This document shows, piece after piece, positions 6,666 through 40,985 of a DNA stretch of 64,000 nt (position 1 is its first letter; each line of letters starts with the position of its first letter). The stretch lies in contig NZ_ATXG01000004.1 in the NCBI RefSeq assembly GCF_000421565.1, positions 62,001-126,000 on the forward strand. The letters are read 5' to 3'. Below the pieces are notes generated by a model. It was given only the letters and a program-made list of their open reading frames with translations, was not told the DNA's origin and did no database searches. The translations under genes were made by a program, and so were the position numbers. This DNA comes from Agromyces subbeticus DSM 16689. GTDB lineage: Bacteria > Actinomycetota > Actinomycetes > Actinomycetales > Microbacteriaceae.

Positions 6666-9600
6666 ATGTATCTGGTCGACGGTTCGGTCGTCACGAGCGC
6701 GAGCGATCTGAAGAAGGCATCCGAGTGCGAGTTCGCCTTCCTGCGAGCGCTCGACGCCAAACTCGGCCGCATCGAGAAGGTGCCCGATCCTGAAGACGCG
6801 ATGCTCGAGCGCTCGGGCCGGCTCGGCGACCAGCACGAGCTGCGAGTGCTCGAGTCGTACCGTGCCGAGCTCGGCGAGGGCGTGGTCGAGATCGAGCGCC
6901 CAGACGTGCGCGACGCTGAAGCGGTCGCGGCGGCCGTCGCCGCGACGCAGGCCGCATTCGCCGCGGGGGCACCCGTCGTCTTCCAGGCGACGTTCGCCGA
7001 CGAGGGCTTCATCGGGTTCGCCGACTTCATCGTGCGCCAGCCCGACGGCCGCTACCTCGTGCAAGACTCCAAGCTCGCGCGCCGGGCGCGGGTCACGGCA
7101 CTGCTGCAGCTCGCGGCCTACGCCGAGCAGCTGCAACGCACCGGAGTGCCGTGCGCCGACACCGTCGAGCTGCTGCTCGGCGACGGTTCGACGAGCGTGC
7201 ACCGGCTCGACGACATCGCCCCCGTCTACCGCCTGCGCCGCGAGCGGCTCGAGCTGATCGTCGCCGACCGGCTCGCCGAGACCGGCCCGGTCGAGTGGGG
7301 CGACCCGCGCTACGCGCTCGACGGGCGCTGTCCCACGTGCGACCTCGAGGTGCAGGGCCACCGCGACGTGCTTCTGGTCGCCGGGCTCAGGGTCACCCAG
7401 CGCACCGCACTGTTCGAGGCGGGCATCACGACGATCGACGAGCTCGCGGCATCCGTCGGCCCGGTGCCCGGCGTGCTCGATGCGACCATCGAGAACCTCC
7501 GGGTGCAGGCGCGGTTGCAGCTCCAGGCCGAAGCGGCTGAGGCGGAAGCAGATGCCTCGGGCCTCCGCTCCCCCGACGACCCACCGCTGCCCCCGCCCGT
7601 CGTCGTACGCGATGCGGCCTCGCTCGCCGCGATTCCCGAGCCCGACGCCGGCGACCTGTTCTTCGACTTCGAGGGCGACCCGCTCTACACCGAGGGCGCG
7701 GCCGACGACTGGGGCCTCGACTACCTCTTCGGCATGGTCGACAACGACGAGCAGTTCACGCCGCTCTGGGCGCATTCCTTCGCCGAAGAGCGGGTGGCGC
7801 TCGAGCAGTTCCTCGAACTCGTGGCGCTACGACGCGCGGCGCACCCGAACATGCACATCTACCACTACGCGAGCTACGAGCGCACCCACCTGCTCACCAT
7901 GGCCGCGCGCCACGGCGTCGGCGAGGCCGCCGTCGACCAACTGCTCAACGACGGCGTCTTCGTCGACCTCTATCCCGTCGTGAAGCGCGCGGTGCGCGTG
8001 GGCAGCCGCTCGTATTCGATCAAGAAGCTCGAGCCCCTCTACATGGGCACCGAGCTGCGCGAGGCCGACGTGAAGTCGGGCGGCGACTCCATCCTCGAGT
8101 ACGTGCGGGCCCGAGAGTACGCAGCCACGGGCGGCACCGACCCGGTCACCGGTCTCAGCGGCTCGGCGGCCGCGCAGCACGTGCTCGACGACCTCGCCGA
8201 CTACAACCGCTACGACTGCGTCTCGACCCTGCGCTTGCGCGACTGGCTGCTGGGCCTCGCCCGCGACGCCGGGGTCGAGCCCGTGCCCGAGTCGATGCTC
8301 GTGCAGGCCGCGAAGGCCGCGGGCAAGGTCTACGAGCCCTCGCCGCTCGCACTGCACCTGCAGGCCATCGCCGGGCCGCCCGACGACCCCGATCGCGACG
8401 CCGACCACACGGCGCTCGCACTCGCGGCGGCGGCCATCGACTACCACGACCGCGAAGCGAAGAGCTTCTGGTGGGCCCATTTCTTCCGGGTCGAGCAGCC
8501 GCTCGACGCGTGGGAAGACCATCGCGACGTGCTCGTCGTCGACCCCGAGGCATCCGCGGTCACCCAGCGCTGGTACCGCGAAGACCACCACCGCGTCGAC
8601 CGGCGCGAGGTGATGCTGCGCGGGCGCATCGCGCCGGGCTCGCGGTTCAGCATCGGTGCCGAGCTTTTCGCGCTTTACGAGCCGCCGGCGCCCTTCGCGC
8701 GGCAAGGCCTGCGCCCGGGCTCGCGCGGCCAGAACGCGGTTCGGGTGCTCGAGGTGCTCGACGACGGCCTCGTCGTCGAAGAGCGTGCCATCGCCGGCTC
8801 CACGTGGCACGAGTTGCCGATGGCCATCGTGCCCGGCACACCGCCGCCCGCCGGCCGGCAGCAGGGTGCGATCTTCGAGTGGGCCGAGGGAGTTGCCCGC
8901 GCCTACCCCGCGTGGCCGAGGAACCCCGCCATCGACGTGCTGCGGCGGGTGCCGCCGCGCACTCGCGGCGGCGTGCCGCTCGCTCCGCTCTCGGCCGACC
9001 ACGACTACGTGGCTGCGGTCGTCGCCTCGGCGCGCTCGCTCGACGGCTCCTACCTCGCCGTGCAGGGGCCACCCGGCACCGGCAAGACCTATCTGGCGTC
9101 GCACGTGATCGCCGAACTCGTCGGCCGGCACGCGTGGAAGGTCGGCGTCGTCGCGCAATCGCACGCCGTCGTCGAGAACGTGCTCGACACCGTCATCGGC
9201 GCGGGGCTCGACGCCGAACTCGTGGCCAAGGCCCCGAAAGACCCGAGCGCGCCCGGCGCCCACACCTACACCGCGATCGCGAAGAACGGGGTGGCCGACT
9301 TCACGGCGGCGCACCAGAGCTCGGGCTTCGTGATCGGCGGCACCGCGTGGGACTTCTCCAACACCGACCGCGTGCCGCGCGGCTCGCTCGACCTGCTCGT
9401 CATCGATGAGGCCGGCCAGTTCTCGCTCGCCTCGACGATCGCCACGGCCGTCGCCGCCCGCAACCTGCTGCTGCTCGGCGACCCGCAGCAGTTGCCGCAA
9501 GTGAGCCAGGGCAACCATCCCGAACCCGTCGACACCTCGGCACTCGGCTGGATCGCCGACGGCCACGACGTGCTGCCCGCCGAGTTCGGGTACTTCCTCG

Positions 9601-30813: not shown

Positions 30814-32502
30814 ATGCCCCACCCGCCGCTCCTCGAGCTCGACCGCGTGAGCATCCGCCACGAGGGAGCGCGATCGGCCACCCCGATCGACGTGTCGTTC
30901 ACGGTCGCACGCGGCGAGGTCGTGCTGATCCTCGGCCCGAGCGGTTGCGGCAAGTCCACCCTCACCCTCGCGCTCGACGGGCTCATCCCGCACGCGGTGC
31001 CCGCCACGCTCGACGGCACGGTGCTCGTGGCTGGGCTCGACACGAGCGAGCACCCCGTGGGCGCGCTGAGCGAGCACGTGGCCATGGTGTTCCAGGACCC
31101 CGACGCCCAGATCGTCACCGGTACGGTGCTCGACGAGGTGTGCTTCGCGCCCGAGAATCAGCTCGTCGCGGCGTCCGAGGTGCTCGAACGCGCCGAGCGG
31201 GCGCTGAAGCTCGTGGGTCTCTGGAGCCGCCGCGCCGAGAACCCCGACACCCTCTCGGGTGGTGGCCGCCAGCGACTCGCGATCGCGTGCGCGCTCGCGA
31301 TGGCGGCGCCCGTGCTCGTGCTCGACGAACCGACCGCGAATCTCGACCCCGCCGGCATCGACGAGGTCTACGCCGTGCTGCGCGAGCTCGCGAGCGACCG
31401 CGACCACGCCGTGGTGCTCGTCGAGCACAACCTCGACGCGGCCGTCGACATCGTCGACCGGGTCATCGTGCTCGACGCCGACGGACGACTCGTGATCGAC
31501 GGCCCCGCCCGCGAGACGCTGCGCGAGCGCGCCGACGAGCTCGCCGCCCTCGGCGTCTGGCTGCCCGTGTCGACGCTCGCCGCGATGCGGCTGCGCGACG
31601 CCGGCGTCGTGCTCGACCCGCTGCCCCTCACGCCGGCCGAGCTCGGCGCAGCGCTCGACGCCGTGCCCGTGCTGCCGGCACCGCTCAGCGCGTCTTCGCC
31701 CGTTCGGTCGACGGCGCTGTCGCCTCGGCCCGCGGTGCACTCGCCGACGTCGCCGCACGCCGCACCTGCCGCCGCCGTCTCCCGGCGGCTCGGTCAGGGT
31801 GTCATCGAGGCCGATCCGGTCATTCGAGCGCGCGGACTCTCGGTGCAACGCGGCGGGCGGCGCGGCCCGACCGTCGTCGAGGGCGTCGACCCGGCCCGAT
31901 GCGACGCCCGCGATCGCGCCCGGCGCATCGGCTTCGTGTTCCAGAACCCAGAGCACCAGTTCATCGCCCCGTCCGTCGCCGAGGAGCTCGCCCAGAGCCT
32001 TCGCGTGCAGGGCACTCCCGATGCCGAGGCCGAACCGCAGATCGACGCGATGCTGCGACGGTTCGGGCTCGAGTCGCTGCGCGAGCAGCATCCGTTCCTC
32101 CTCTCCGGCGGGCAGAAGCGGCGCCTCTCGGTCGGCACCGCCCTCATCGCGGGAGCTCCAGTGCTCGCGCTCGACGAGCCGACGTTCGGGCAGGACCGCG
32201 CCCGCGCATCGGAGCTGCTCGACATGCTGCGCACGCTCAACGACGAGGGCACGACCGTGCTCGTCGTCACCCACGACCTGCAGCTCGTCGCCGACTACGC
32301 GAGCCACATCGCCGCGATGCACGACGGCCGGCTTCTCGCCGTCGGCCCCGCGGCCGAGGTGCTCGCCGGGCCGCTCGTCGAGCAGGCGGGGCTGCGGCAT
32401 CCGCCCCTCGCCCGGGCGACGCGCGGGCTCGTGCGGCATCCGTCATGGCACGGTGTGAGTCGGATGTCGCAATTGCCCGTCTCCTCGGCGGCGGGCTCGT
32501 GA
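30814..32502 (+). CDS. ECF transporter duplicated ATPase (EcfA1-EcfA2 fusion) with damaged second domain
   Basis: A 562-residue protein with two ABC ATPase domains, as in YkoD-type ECF transporters. Domain 1 is complete: Walker A GPSGCGKST (41-49), Q-loop MVFQD, signature LSGGGRQR, Walker B VLVLDEPT and H-loop LVEHN. Domain 2 has its Q-loop FVFQN, signature LSGGQKRR, Walker B VLALDEPT and VTHD, but only about 38 residues separate its first strand from the Q-loop, against about 85 in domain 1. The P-loop is therefore missing, an in-frame loss of about 47 codons near residue 358. Domain 2 cannot bind ATP normally. The stop overlaps the EcfT start (GTGA). Confidence 0.85.
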   Translation: MPHPPLLELDRVSIRHEGARSATPIDVSFTVARGEVVLILGPSGCGKSTLTLALDGLIPHAVPATLDGTVLVAGLDTSEHPVGALSEHVAMVFQDPDAQIVTGTVLDEVCFAPENQLVAASEVLERAERALKLVGLWSRRAENPDTLSGGGRQRLAIACALAMAAPVLVLDEPTANLDPAGIDEVYAVLRELASDRDHAVVLVEHNLDAAVDIVDRVIVLDADGRLVIDGPARETLRERADELAALGVWLPVSTLAAMRLRDAGVVLDPLPLTPAELGAALDAVPVLPAPLSASSPVRSTALSPRPAVHSPTSPHAAPAAAVSRRLGQGVIEADPVIRARGLSVQRGGRRGPTVVEGVDPARCDARDRARRIGFVFQNPEHQFIAPSVAEELAQSLRVQGTPDAEAEPQIDAMLRRFGLESLREQHPFLLSGGQKRRLSVGTALIAGAPVLALDEPTFGQDRARASELLDMLRTLNDEGTTVLVVTHDLQLVADYASHIAAMHDGRLLAVGPAAEVLAGPLVEQAGLRHPPLARATRGLVRHPSWHGVSRMSQLPVSSAAGS

Positions 32503-33362
32503 GCGCGGGCGGCGGCGTGCTTCCGGCAGGCGGCGACCACGCGGCATCCGGCGCCCTCGACCCCTTCGCCGCCCACCGCTCGCGGCGCCCCGCCCGCTTC
32601 CTCTCCGCCCTGAACCCGATCGCGAAGCTCGCCGCACCGCTGCCGGTGATGGTGCTCGTGATGTTCAGCCGCGGCATCGCCGTGCCGCTCGCGTTCGTCG
32701 TCTTCGCCGCGGCGGTGCTGCTCGTCGGTGCCCGGCTGCCGGGGCGCGCGGTTGCGGCGCTGCTGCTCGGTACGCCGGTCGCGGCGCTCGTGCTCGGGGT
32801 GACGTTCGGCGTATGGATCGATCCGTCGAGCGTGACAGGCGAGCCCGCGGCATCCGTCACCCTCGTCTCGATCGGCGACTGGAGCTTCTCGCTCGCCGCC
32901 TATCTCGTGGGACTCGCGACAGCGCTGCGCATCCTCGCGATCCTGCTGCTCTCGCTCATCGCCGGCGTCACCTCGACCGGTCCCGAGTTCGTGCGCTCGA
33001 TGGTGCAGAACCTGCGGGTGCCGTACCGCCTCGGCTACACGGCGCTCGCGGCGCTGCGTTTCGTTCCGAGGTTCGGCCACGAGCTCGAGATCATCAGGGC
33101 CGCTCACCGCGTGCGCGGCACGGATGCCGGGCGCGGGCCGGTCGCGGCCGTGCGACGCGCCCTCGGCTATGCGGTGCCGCTGCTCGCCTCGGCCATCAGG
33201 CACGCCGAGCGCGTCGCCCTCGCCATGGACGCCCGGGCCTTCGGCGCGCATCCCACCCGCACCGAGCGTTACCGCTCACCCTGGCGGGCACGCGACACCG
33301 TGTTCGTGGCGTGCTTCCTCGCGGCGAGCGCGGTCATCGCGTGGCTGACCTGGGGCCGCTGA
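32499..33362 (+). CDS. ecfT: ECF transporter transmembrane T component
   Basis: A 287-residue membrane protein, with GTG start at 32499 overlapping the ATPase stop. After a 35-residue cytoplasmic lead it has about five or six helices. The coupling region carries the family's two charged motifs, around IIRAAHRVRGTD (residues about 195-206) and ALAMDARAFG (about 243), which contact the ATPases. EcfT joins the energising module to a substrate-binding S component. No S component gene is next to it, so S must be encoded elsewhere or be lost. A 34-bp palindromic hairpin follows. Confidence 0.88.
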   Translation: MSAGGGVLPAGGDHAASGALDPFAAHRSRRPARFLSALNPIAKLAAPLPVMVLVMFSRGIAVPLAFVVFAAAVLLVGARLPGRAVAALLLGTPVAALVLGVTFGVWIDPSSVTGEPAASVTLVSIGDWSFSLAAYLVGLATALRILAILLLSLIAGVTSTGPEFVRSMVQNLRVPYRLGYTALAALRFVPRFGHELEIIRAAHRVRGTDAGRGPVAAVRRALGYAVPLLASAIRHAERVALAMDARAFGAHPTRTERYRSPWRARDTVFVACFLAASAVIAWLTWGR

Positions 33363-34407: not shown

Positions 34408-34594
34408 GAGGGGATGTCTCGATTCGATCGTGAGCAGAGTGGCTCCAGTCTGCACCGTTCTGCTTTCGATTGCCTGAATCGGCCGGTTCGATCGCCGACG
34501 AAGGGCATCGGATGTCGCCGCGACGCACCGCCCGATTCGCTGCACGACCGCCCGATTTCCCTCGATCCGGGCCGATCAGGGCCACAATGAGCAG

Positions 34595-35419
34595 ATGGGG
34601 AGCACGGTGGGGGAACCTGATTTCGGTGGAGCATTCGCGGCCGCGGCGGCATCCTTCACCGAGCTCGACGACGTGCTCTGGAATCCGATCTCGACCGCCG
34701 CGGTGGCACGCGCGCGGCCCCGTTTCGACGAACTCGTGTTCGATGCGTGCTGCGGTGACGGGGCATCGGCGCTGCCGACCGCCGAGCTCGTGGGCATCGG
34801 CGGCGTCGTCGACGCGGTCGATCTCGCCGAGCCGCTGGTCGCGGTCGCGCGCGAGCGAGCGGGCGAGCGGATGCCGCAGCTGCGCCTGCACGTCGACGAT
34901 GTCACGAGCTGGGAGCCCACGGGCTACGACCTCGTGCAGTGCGTGCTCGGCGTCTTCTTCTTCCCCGATCTCGACGCCGGCACGCGGCACCTGATCGAAC
35001 GCGCCCGCCCCGGCGGCCGCGTGGCGATCACGGTGTGGGCCCGCGGGGCGTTCGACCCATTGCCCGAACTGCTCGCCGCGGCGCTGCCCGACGGTGGGGA
35101 GGGTCTCGACGAGCGCGCGCCGCGCTCGGCCGGCCTCGAACAGATCGACACCCCCGGCAGTCTCGCCCAGTGGCTGACCGGCCTCGGGCTCGTCGGGGTG
35201 CGCGCCGAAGCCGTGCAGCGGCACCTCGATCTCACACCCGACCTCGCCTGGTCGCTCGTGCTCGGCACTGCGCTGCGCGTGCTGCTCGACGAGCTCGACG
35301 AGCTCGACGACGAGATGATCGCCGGCGTGCGCGAACGCTACCTCGCCGCACTCGCTGAACGAGGCGTGACCTCGATCGACGTGACGACGCTCATCGCGAT
35401 CGGCCGGCGTGCATCGTAG
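34595..35419 (+). CDS. SAM-dependent methyltransferase, UbiE-like
   Basis: A 274-residue class I methyltransferase. Motif I is VFDACCGDGASALP (about residues 48-61), the acidic end of strand 2 is in VDAVDLAEPLV, motif II/III is LRLHVDDVTSWEP, then GYDLVQCVLGVFFFPD and ERARPGGRVAITVW. The two Cys in motif I are unusual in place of L-x-G. The C-terminal 100 residues are a substrate cap. The acceptor is unknown. It is divergent from the FKBP gene and precedes the MerR-linked hydrolase pair without obvious coupling. Confidence 0.85.
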   Translation: MGSTVGEPDFGGAFAAAAASFTELDDVLWNPISTAAVARARPRFDELVFDACCGDGASALPTAELVGIGGVVDAVDLAEPLVAVARERAGERMPQLRLHVDDVTSWEPTGYDLVQCVLGVFFFPDLDAGTRHLIERARPGGRVAITVWARGAFDPLPELLAAALPDGGEGLDERAPRSAGLEQIDTPGSLAQWLTGLGLVGVRAEAVQRHLDLTPDLAWSLVLGTALRVLLDELDELDDEMIAGVRERYLAALAERGVTSIDVTTLIAIGRRAS

Positions 35420-38749: not shown

Positions 38750-39598
38750 CTACGCCACCGGCGAGGGCGACGCGCTCGTGGCGACCGGACGCGAATCGTC
38801 GTTCGACCACTGGCTCCACGAACCCGGGTACAGCGCAGCACCGATGCCGGCGATGGCGAGGGCCGCGACCTCATGCGCGGCGGTCACGCCTGATCCGCAA
38901 TAGGCGGCGACCGCGATGCCGGGCGTGATGCCGAGCTCGGCGAACCGCTCGCGCAGCACCTCGGCGGGCAGAAACCGCCCGCCGGCATCGAGGTTGTCAC
39001 CGCTCGGCGCCGATCGCGCGCCCGGAATGTGACCCGCGCGCGGGTCGATGGGCTCGACCTCACCGCGGTACCGCGGCGCGGCGCGGGCGTCGAGCAGCAC
39101 GCCGCCGGTGGCGAAGTCGGCAGCGGCGTCGATGTCGATGACCGGCATCGAGCCGAAGTGCGCGGCGGCATCCCCCGGCTCGGGAACGACGTCTCCGGTC
39201 TCGAGCGGATGCCCCGCCGAGACCCAGGCTGCCAGGCCCCCGTCGAGCATGCGCACGTCGTCGACGCCGGCGTGCCGCAGCAGCCACCACGCGCGAGCCG
39301 ACGATTGGTTGCCGAGGTCGTCCATGACCACGATCGCGTCGCCGTCGCGCAGGCCCCACCGCCGCATGGCTGTCGTGAAGGCGGCTTCCGAGGGCAGCGG
39401 ATGCCGCCCCTCCCCTGTCACGGCGTGGTCGGCGAGCTCGTGGTCGAGGTCGACGTAGACCGCGCCCGGAACGTGCCCGTCGCGGTACGCCGCCGAGCCG
39501 TCGGGTTCGGCGAGCGACCAGCGCACGTCGAGCACGACGGTGCGCAGCCCTGCCTCGAGGCGTTCGGCGAGCTCGTGCACATCGATGAGAATCGGCAT
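38750..39598 (-). CDS. Sulfurtransferase (two-domain rhodanese, thiosulfate:cyanide type)
   Basis: A 282-residue protein made of two rhodanese domains. The N-terminal, inactive one covers about 5-130 (VLDVRWSLAEPDG, GHVPGAVYVDLD). The C-terminal active one has the loop YCGSGVTA with nucleophile Cys234. CGSGVTA is typical of the 3-mercaptopyruvate/thiosulfate sulfurtransferase group. It moves sulfur to thiophilic acceptors in the cytoplasm. No operon partner. Confidence 0.93.
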   Translation of the reverse strand: MPILIDVHELAERLEAGLRTVVLDVRWSLAEPDGSAAYRDGHVPGAVYVDLDHELADHAVTGEGRHPLPSEAAFTTAMRRWGLRDGDAIVVMDDLGNQSSARAWWLLRHAGVDDVRMLDGGLAAWVSAGHPLETGDVVPEPGDAAAHFGSMPVIDIDAAADFATGGVLLDARAAPRYRGEVEPIDPRAGHIPGARSAPSGDNLDAGGRFLPAEVLRERFAELGITPGIAVAAYCGSGVTAAHEVAALAIAGIGAALYPGSWSQWSNDDSRPVATSASPSPVA

Positions 39599-39715
39599 CC
39601 CTCCATCCTGCCAAGCCCGCGGGCGGCGCCGAGCCGCAGCATCCGTGTCTCCGTTGCATAACGGCGGCTTGCGGATGCCTCCTCACGCAACGTATCGTCG
39701 AGAGAGTCGAAATAG

Positions 39716-39733
39716 TGACCGAATGGTCGGTCA
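39716..39733. promoter_or_regulatory. TetR-like operator before the branched-chain ABC operon
   Basis: TGACCGA-ATGG-TCGGTCA, perfect 7-bp arms with 4-bp spacer, 59 bp before the binding-protein start. The ACCGA...TCGGT form resembles sites of TetR regulators of acyl-CoA and aromatic catabolism. The matching regulator gene is not in the window. Confidence 0.55.
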
Positions 39734-39791
39734 TGAATCAACACCCTACTCAGTGACGAGAACCCGCCAGGGCTCAAAGGAGAGTTCACCC

Positions 39792-40985
39792 ATGCACCGT
39801 GTGCAACGCCGTCTGCTCGTTCCCGCCGCGGTCGCGGCATCCATCGCCCTCGCACTCACCGGTTGCGGCGCGTCGAACTTCGGCGGCGACTCCGGTGGCG
39901 ACGGCGCCTCGGAAGAGGGCCCGATCAAGATCGGCGCCGTGCTCGACATCACGGGCGTCGGCGCGAACCTCGGCGTTCCCGAGCAGAACACGCTCAACAT
40001 GCTCGCCGAGCAGCTCAACGCCGACGGCGGCATCGACGGCCGCGAGGTCGAGCTCATCATCAAAGACAACCAGTCGACCGAAGACGGCGCCGCGAAGGCG
40101 ACGACGCAGCTCATCGAGAACGACGACGTCGACCTCATCATCGGCTCTTCGCGCACCGGCCCGTCGCTCGCGATGCGCCCGCTCGTCGAGGCCGCGCAGG
40201 TGCCCACCATCTCGGTCGCCGCGAACGCCGCGATCGTCGACGGCTCGGAGTGGGTCTTCAAGACCGCGCAGAACGACCTCGTCGTGCTCGAGCGCATCCT
40301 CGACGACGCCGAGTCGAAGGGCTACACGAAGGTCGCCCTCGTTCGCGACGCGACGGGCTTCGGCGAGGGCATCGCCGACATCATCACCGAGCTCGGCGAA
40401 GAGCGCGGCATCACGCTCACCGCGACCGAGTCTTTCGAGCCGAGCGCGACCGACTTCACCGCGCAGATGACGAACATCCGCGGTGCCGACGCCGACGCCG
40501 TCATCATCTGGGGCATCACCCCGTCGGCCGGTCTCGCGCAGGCCGCCTACGTGCAGCTCGGCGTGGGCAAGCCGGTCTACCAGTCGCACGGTGTCGCGAA
40601 CGACGCGTTCTTCGAGGCCGCGGGCCCCGCCGCCGACGGCGTCATCGCGCCGATGGGCCGCCTGCTCGTCGCCGACCAGCTCGCCGACGACGACCCGCAG
40701 AAAGAGGTCATCGACCAGTTCATCGCCGACTACTCCGCCGAGTTCGGCAGCTCCCCCTCGAGCTTCGCCGGGCACGCGTTCGACGCCTGGCTCGTGGGCA
40801 CGCAGGCCATCGAGGCCGCGGGCACCGAGCCCGAGGGGCTGCGCGACGCGATCGAGGCGACCACCGACCTCGTGGGCATCTCGGGCATCTTCACGATGAC
40901 GCCTGACAACCACTCGGGCCTCACGGCCGACGCCCTCATCATGGCGCTCGCCGAGGGCGGCCGCTGGACCCTCTACGAAGAGTGA
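39792..40985 (+). CDS. livJ: Branched-chain amino acid-type ABC transporter, substrate-binding lipoprotein
   Basis: A 397-residue periplasmic-binding-protein-fold lipoprotein. ATG 39792, preceded by AAAGGAG, opens a signal peptide with lipobox LTGC (Cys25). The mature part matches the Leu/Ile/Val family: IKIGAVLDITGVGANLG, LAEQLNADGGIDGREVELI and DDVDLIIGSSRTGPSLAM. It captures the substrate and hands it to the downstream permeases. The substrate could be amino acids, urea, amides or aromatic acids; the operator type leans to catabolic substrates (inference). Confidence 0.92.
   Translation: MHRVQRRLLVPAAVAASIALALTGCGASNFGGDSGGDGASEEGPIKIGAVLDITGVGANLGVPEQNTLNMLAEQLNADGGIDGREVELIIKDNQSTEDGAAKATTQLIENDDVDLIIGSSRTGPSLAMRPLVEAAQVPTISVAANAAIVDGSEWVFKTAQNDLVVLERILDDAESKGYTKVALVRDATGFGEGIADIITELGEERGITLTATESFEPSATDFTAQMTNIRGADADAVIIWGITPSAGLAQAAYVQLGVGKPVYQSHGVANDAFFEAAGPAADGVIAPMGRLLVADQLADDDPQKEVIDQFIADYSAEFGSSPSSFAGHAFDAWLVGTQAIEAAGTEPEGLRDAIEATTDLVGISGIFTMTPDNHSGLTADALIMALAEGGRWTLYEE

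Follow-up and report, generated by a model that had tools for sequence, protein, structure and literature searches.

The question raised by this locus is whether an ECF importer can run on a fused ATPase whose second domain has no P-loop, or whether such a gene records a recent lesion, an old decay or a faulty assembly. The window, that is, the whole 64,000-nucleotide stretch of Agromyces subbeticus DSM 16689 that was analysed, comes from a 4.3 Mb draft genome in 34 contigs. At 30814-32502 on the forward strand, it contains a fused ECF ATPase gene (EcfA-EcfA'/YkoD type) of 562 aa, recognized from its open reading frame and family matches, which lacks 129 bp present in its relatives. Two ABC domains lie on one chain, and the ABC_tran model (PF00005) matches in two stretches with 139.6 bits. 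The similarity is of the ECF type: the best two NCBIfam matches are ECF ATPase models, both under their cut-offs (TIGR04521, 305.5 bits with a cut-off of 330; TIGR04520, 303.2 with a cut-off of 315), and the cbiO model TIGR01166 is passed (232.2 bits, cut-off 211.8). In the same operon lies an intact gene for EcfT, a CbiQ-family protein (forward strand, 32499-33362; PF02361, 84.8 bits); one candidate start, a GTG, overlaps the stop of the ATPase gene, and another lies at 32517. The pairing of an EcfT/CbiQ gene with an ATPase that has both ABC domains fused in one chain resembles the YkoD-type fusions of the group I ykoEDC systems (PMC5037267). One feature of a fused ECF ATPase is incomplete here: the Walker A motif, expected in both domains, is found in domain 1 only.

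The original prediction, made from the letters of the sequence, described a complete domain 1 and a domain 2 that has no Walker A and keeps its later motifs in an open frame, and each of these points was borne out. In domain 1, Walker A is GPSGCGKS at residues 41-48 (30934-30957, forward strand), with G41, P42, S43, G44, G46, K47 and S48 invariant in a 46-sequence alignment whose first row is the window protein. The domain 1 signature, identified as a motif, is the non-canonical LSGGG (residues 147-151, 31252-31266, forward strand); among the best 80 loci of 560 relatives, 74 have LSGGGRQ. This substitution for LSGGQ is common in the subfamily, and the genome's own YkoD paralogue, 40.6% identical to the ATPase, has LSGGQ there. 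The Walker A of domain 1 is the single GxxGxGK[ST] in the entire protein. The later motifs of domain 2, all on the forward strand, are in place: the Q-loop region FQNPEHQF (residues 376-383, 31939-31962), found by motif and alignment; the signature LSGGQ (residues 430-434, 32101-32115), found by motif search; the end of Walker B, LDEPT (residues 453-457, 32170-32184), and the H-loop histidine (residue 487, 32272-32274), both in invariant columns. Specifically, Q377, L430-G433, D454-E455 and H487 are invariant in the same alignment. Relatives have LSGGQ as the domain 2 signature at 70 of the best 80 loci of 560, and LSGGE at the remaining 10. No stop or frameshift occurs within the frame at 30814-32502.

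What is missing can be measured exactly. From the GRRG or GRRG-like motif to the FQN of the Q-loop, the window protein has 28 residues, compared with 71 in all 12 of the relatives displayed, and with respect to the Agromyces orthologues the loss is exactly 43 codons (129 bp), in frame. A clean in-frame loss had been proposed, of about 47 codons near 31885-31910; its character stands, its size is smaller, and the junction falls within 31882-31891, slightly to the left of that interval or overlapping it. Pairwise BLASTP against 11 Agromyces loci placed a 43-residue gap at one position in nine, and split it in the other two (30+13 and 27+16, each totalling 43). Intact Agromyces orthologues (for example, loci L012, L018 and L019) are 77.7-79.0% identical to the window protein and carry the 43 residues. 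For three loci from outside the genus (L032, L034 and L043) BLASTP opened no gap, and the MAFFT alignment shows that they contain the block that the window lacks. As judged from alignment to the relatives and to solved ABC chains, the missing block takes in the second strand, the P-loop along with its own strand and helix, and the strand that comes after them.

We searched for the same gap in relatives, as alignment with related fusions had been proposed as a check, and did not find it: relatives that are complete in this region keep the second P-loop. Our scan of 560 relatives retained the best 80 loci, 16 of them from Agromyces, and some of these genomes also occur in the genus survey. Two Walker A motifs are present in all 80 of these best loci, and the presence of the domain 2 P-loop in every one of them suggests a requirement for it in the family. 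Of 60 genomes in the genus survey, 47 matched at an E-value of 1e-110, the window's own included, and 13 had no match at that E-value; a search with domain 2 alone at 1e-45 found six of the 60 and is too strict to serve as a census. Of the 46 other matched genomes, 45 have the domain 2 P-loop, including one (G021, locus L177) in which the start of the gene is cut off; in the 46th (G002, L164) the contig ends before the P-loop is reached. An ancestral loss common to the relatives was rejected, since the relatives are intact. Because those with a complete gene keep the piece, the window most likely holds a recent inactivating deletion and not a new kind of motor. Judging from these comparisons, we regard it as probable that the deletion has inactivated the ECF module and that the window carries a recent null allele.

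The junction suggests how the segment may have been lost. The window has only one copy of GGCGTCGACC, at 31882-31891 on the forward strand, at the point where comparison with relatives places the missing 129 bp. Seven relatives have exact repeats on the 129-bp diagonal, of 10 bp in L013 and L016, 8 bp in L015, L020 and L021, and 7 bp in L012 and L014. The single copy in the window is likely the footprint of a repeat-mediated deletion, in which 129 bp of domain 2 would have been removed recently between two short direct repeats; such a deletion is automatically in frame because both repeat copies share one codon phase. Counted against this mechanism is the fact that the repeats are shorter than 10 bp in five of the seven relatives, including the sister genome G009 (L012, 7 bp). 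Each of the seven genes has 16-23 direct repeats of at least 10 bp at spacings of 12-599, of which 14-22 are spaced in frame. Since such repeats are common in these genes, this one is an expected substrate and not a rare coincidence, and we treat it as supporting evidence only.

The junction also bears on a possible error, in which the gene would be whole in the organism and library preparation or assembly would have dropped the 129 bp; we consider this unlikely. The genome is a draft in many contigs, and the loss occurs in this genome alone among those examined, as would be the case for an error. However, a junction at a short direct repeat is like those of real deletions, and a repeat of 10 bp is far shorter than the usual assembly k-mers, which would also argue against an assembly artefact. 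Moreover, the missing stretch has no close copy elsewhere in the assembly: when the genome was searched for an intact copy with the sister's DNA, none of the 39 matches was close. The best was 71% identical over 138 bases, at another ABC gene, and the leading matches were short or lay at other ABC genes.

The surrounding genes offer a further check on the assembly. The order hexapeptide gene, ATPase, EcfT, FKBP is the same in loci L017 and L018; L019 has its FKBP gene about 2.7 kb further along, and at other Agromyces loci the neighbours largely match, with insertions between some genes. Six other syntenic genes, each compared with at least three loci and with gaps of at least 8 aa reported, have no gap of at least 15 aa common to two relatives, which again speaks against a fault of assembly; this count leaves out two further stop-to-stop frames that overlap the ATPase gene on other frames. 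The gaps that do appear are one of 42 aa with respect to a single relative (L023) in the gene at 34478-35416, gaps of 11 and 13 aa at one place in the gene at 38753-39682 (with respect to L021 and L023), and one of 13 aa in the gene at 39459-40982 (with respect to L018).

We also searched seven genomes, the window's included, for S components and CbiQ genes that could be partners of the ATPase. Each has one strong and one weaker match to PF09819 (YkoE-type), one or two BioY genes and three or four CbiQ genes, and none of the seven has an ECF_trnsprt (PF12822) S component. In the window's genome, the PF09819 matches are on contigs C2 and C7, with none at the ATPase locus. The strong match, on C2, adjoins the intact YkoD paralogue and a TPP riboswitch. 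The weaker one is a 196-aa protein on C7 (L150 5022-5612, reverse strand; about 154192-154539 of C7 in the genome, G000), located between genes that resemble, by eye, polysaccharide-export ABC genes. Of the 64 loci from outside Agromyces among the best 80 of 560 relatives, 54 have a gene similar to this C7 candidate that ends within 1 kb upstream of the ATPase; in the other 10 it is farther upstream (six) or downstream only (four). Among the 16 Agromyces loci in the same best 80 of 560, it is upstream in none and downstream in one (L024). The conserved neighbourhood outside the genus makes the C7 gene the likely candidate for the S component of this module, unlinked from it in Agromyces. Loci L032, L044, L055 and some others have a further, weaker relative of the candidate downstream of the module, at about 7500-9300. 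An S-component candidate from PF09819 is a further likeness to ykoEDC (PMC5037267). Unlike the YkoD-type systems, the locus has a domain 2 without a P-loop and no S gene beside the operon. The YkoE gene and TPP riboswitch that mark a thiamine-type ykoEDC operon are both absent here; the window contains no TPP riboswitch at the gathering threshold, the C2 ykoEDC locus being where one is present.

We estimated omega for the window branch and the background using a purpose-written branch codon model on eight genomes (seven for the S candidate and FKBP). For the whole ATPase with its linker (544 codons), there is a mild rise on the window branch (0.064 against a background of 0.039, p 0.032). Without the linker (484 codons), the values are 0.053 and 0.035 (p 0.107), with 0.09 the first grid value rejected, and domain 2 alone in this run gives 0.048 and 0.041 (p 0.689; first rejected 0.10). 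Taken separately, domain 1 has 0.054 and 0.025 (p 0.064), and domain 2 has 0.053 and 0.041 (p 0.458). EcfT, with 277 of its 287 codons in gap-free columns of an alignment with seven relatives, has 0.054 and 0.080 (p 0.277), and the S candidate 0.028 and 0.028 (p 0.982). The control neighbours give 0.033 and 0.077 for the hexapeptide gene (p 0.276), 0.040 and 0.047 for the sulfatase (p 0.349), and 0.115 and 0.110 for FKBP (p 0.872). By these estimates, purifying selection is strong on the remainder of the ATPase, on EcfT and on the likely S component encoded elsewhere, and in a simple mixture of omegas the neutral share of the window branch is at most about 6%.

There may be weak relaxation on the window branch. 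Without the linker, its omega of 0.053 is the second highest of seven branches tested, exceeded only by that of G009, the intact sister (0.066, p 0.063); values for the remaining five run from 0.007 to 0.031, two of them significantly low. Private substitutions number 6 of 232 in domain 1 and 6 of 161 in domain 2, the highest after the outgroup G024 (the sister G009 has 4 of 230 and 4 of 159), and 2 of 24 in the linker, tied with G024. We do not read the raised window values as decay because the intact sister behaves alike, and with so few private changes in what is left of domain 2, adaptation to the loss is not clearly indicated. In the sister's own orthologue (G009 C1 2703659-2705437, L128), omega of domain 2 is raised (0.206 against 0.035, p 0.010). 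Given the constraint on what remains of the gene, on EcfT and on the S candidate, either the loss is recent or tolerated, or it is an artefact of assembly. The estimates give no clear decay, with the window branch on the high side, and are compatible with a very recent null, a functional allele or an assembly error, for the last of which the constrained look of the remaining gene is a point in favor. The open frame and the constraint count against a null allele, as a functional protein would also give both. Old decay of the locus was set aside, there being no further lesions in addition to this constraint. Of the outcomes originally listed for the locus, inactivation is the one we favor, as a recent deletion and not in the sense of long decay.

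In an ABC dimer, one ATP site is formed by the P-loop of domain 1 and the LSGGQ of domain 2 (site 1), and the other by the P-loop of domain 2 and, here, the LSGGG of domain 1 (site 2). Both motifs of site 1 are kept. The product of the window's gene would be unable to form site 2 and, because the core of domain 2 has lost the P-loop strand and the helix after it, would presumably have no working dimer fold. A misfolded domain 2 and no transport are to be expected on this structural reasoning, and the ECF module of the genome would then be inactive, leaving the intact ykoEDC and a BioY-associated system.

The original proposal that the transporter works with one ATP site found no positive evidence, and we consider it very doubtful. 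It would have the domain 1 P-loop and the domain 2 LSGGQ still bind and hydrolyse one ATP, the lost site having been the weaker, so that one composite site suffices even after complete removal of the second P-loop, strand and helix, the LSGGG/LSGGQ asymmetry having made the second site dispensable. The kept frame, the retained site 1 motifs and an EcfT and S candidate that are intact and constrained are consistent with such a transporter, as is the pairing of the lost site with LSGGG, the deviation prevalent in the subfamily. Against it stand the universal retention of the domain 2 P-loop in the best 80 of 560 loci, a deletion that reaches beyond the lysine to a core strand and helix, and the lack of clear compensating changes. 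Published kinetics are relevant too: in PMC7755397, ECF transport rates are sigmoidal in ATP, that is, cooperative between sites, which argues against a single-site importer, and earlier ATPase assays are described there as having a hyperbolic, not sigmoidal, ATP dependence. In PMC5997447, the authors speculate that two ATP are used.

Less probable still, to the point of being highly improbable, is that the truncated protein uses its domain 1 together with another ATPase, either a second copy of itself or the intact YkoD, with domain 2 as dead weight. Domain 1 is intact and constrained, and the genome has both the YkoD paralogue and the BioY-associated system as possible sources of partners. 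However, the constraint on domain 2 is close to that in the relatives (p 0.689 above), which would not be expected of dead weight in an old allele.

A recent null allele remains our preferred reading. CFTR, ABCG5/G8 and Cdr1 are ABC transporters with one degenerate ATP site, and they share with the window's ATPase an asymmetric pair of sites. In those proteins, substitutions shared across a family have made the site degenerate, whereas here the P-loop is absent together with its strand and helix, in one genome. Among the literature matches listed, as far as their partial text goes, the phrase for ABC proteins lacking Walker A does not appear, and none by title concerns Agromyces ECF transporters.

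If the allele is a recent null, it would be a loss-of-function mutation of an ordinary kind whose cause is unusually easy to read, and it would provide a natural knock-out of the ECF module. If instead the protein works, an ECF importer would be able to work with a single ATP site and no second P-loop, which would bear on the number of ATP used per cycle. In either case, the LSGGG/LSGGQ asymmetry of the subfamily offers a testable hint that the two sites may be unequal.
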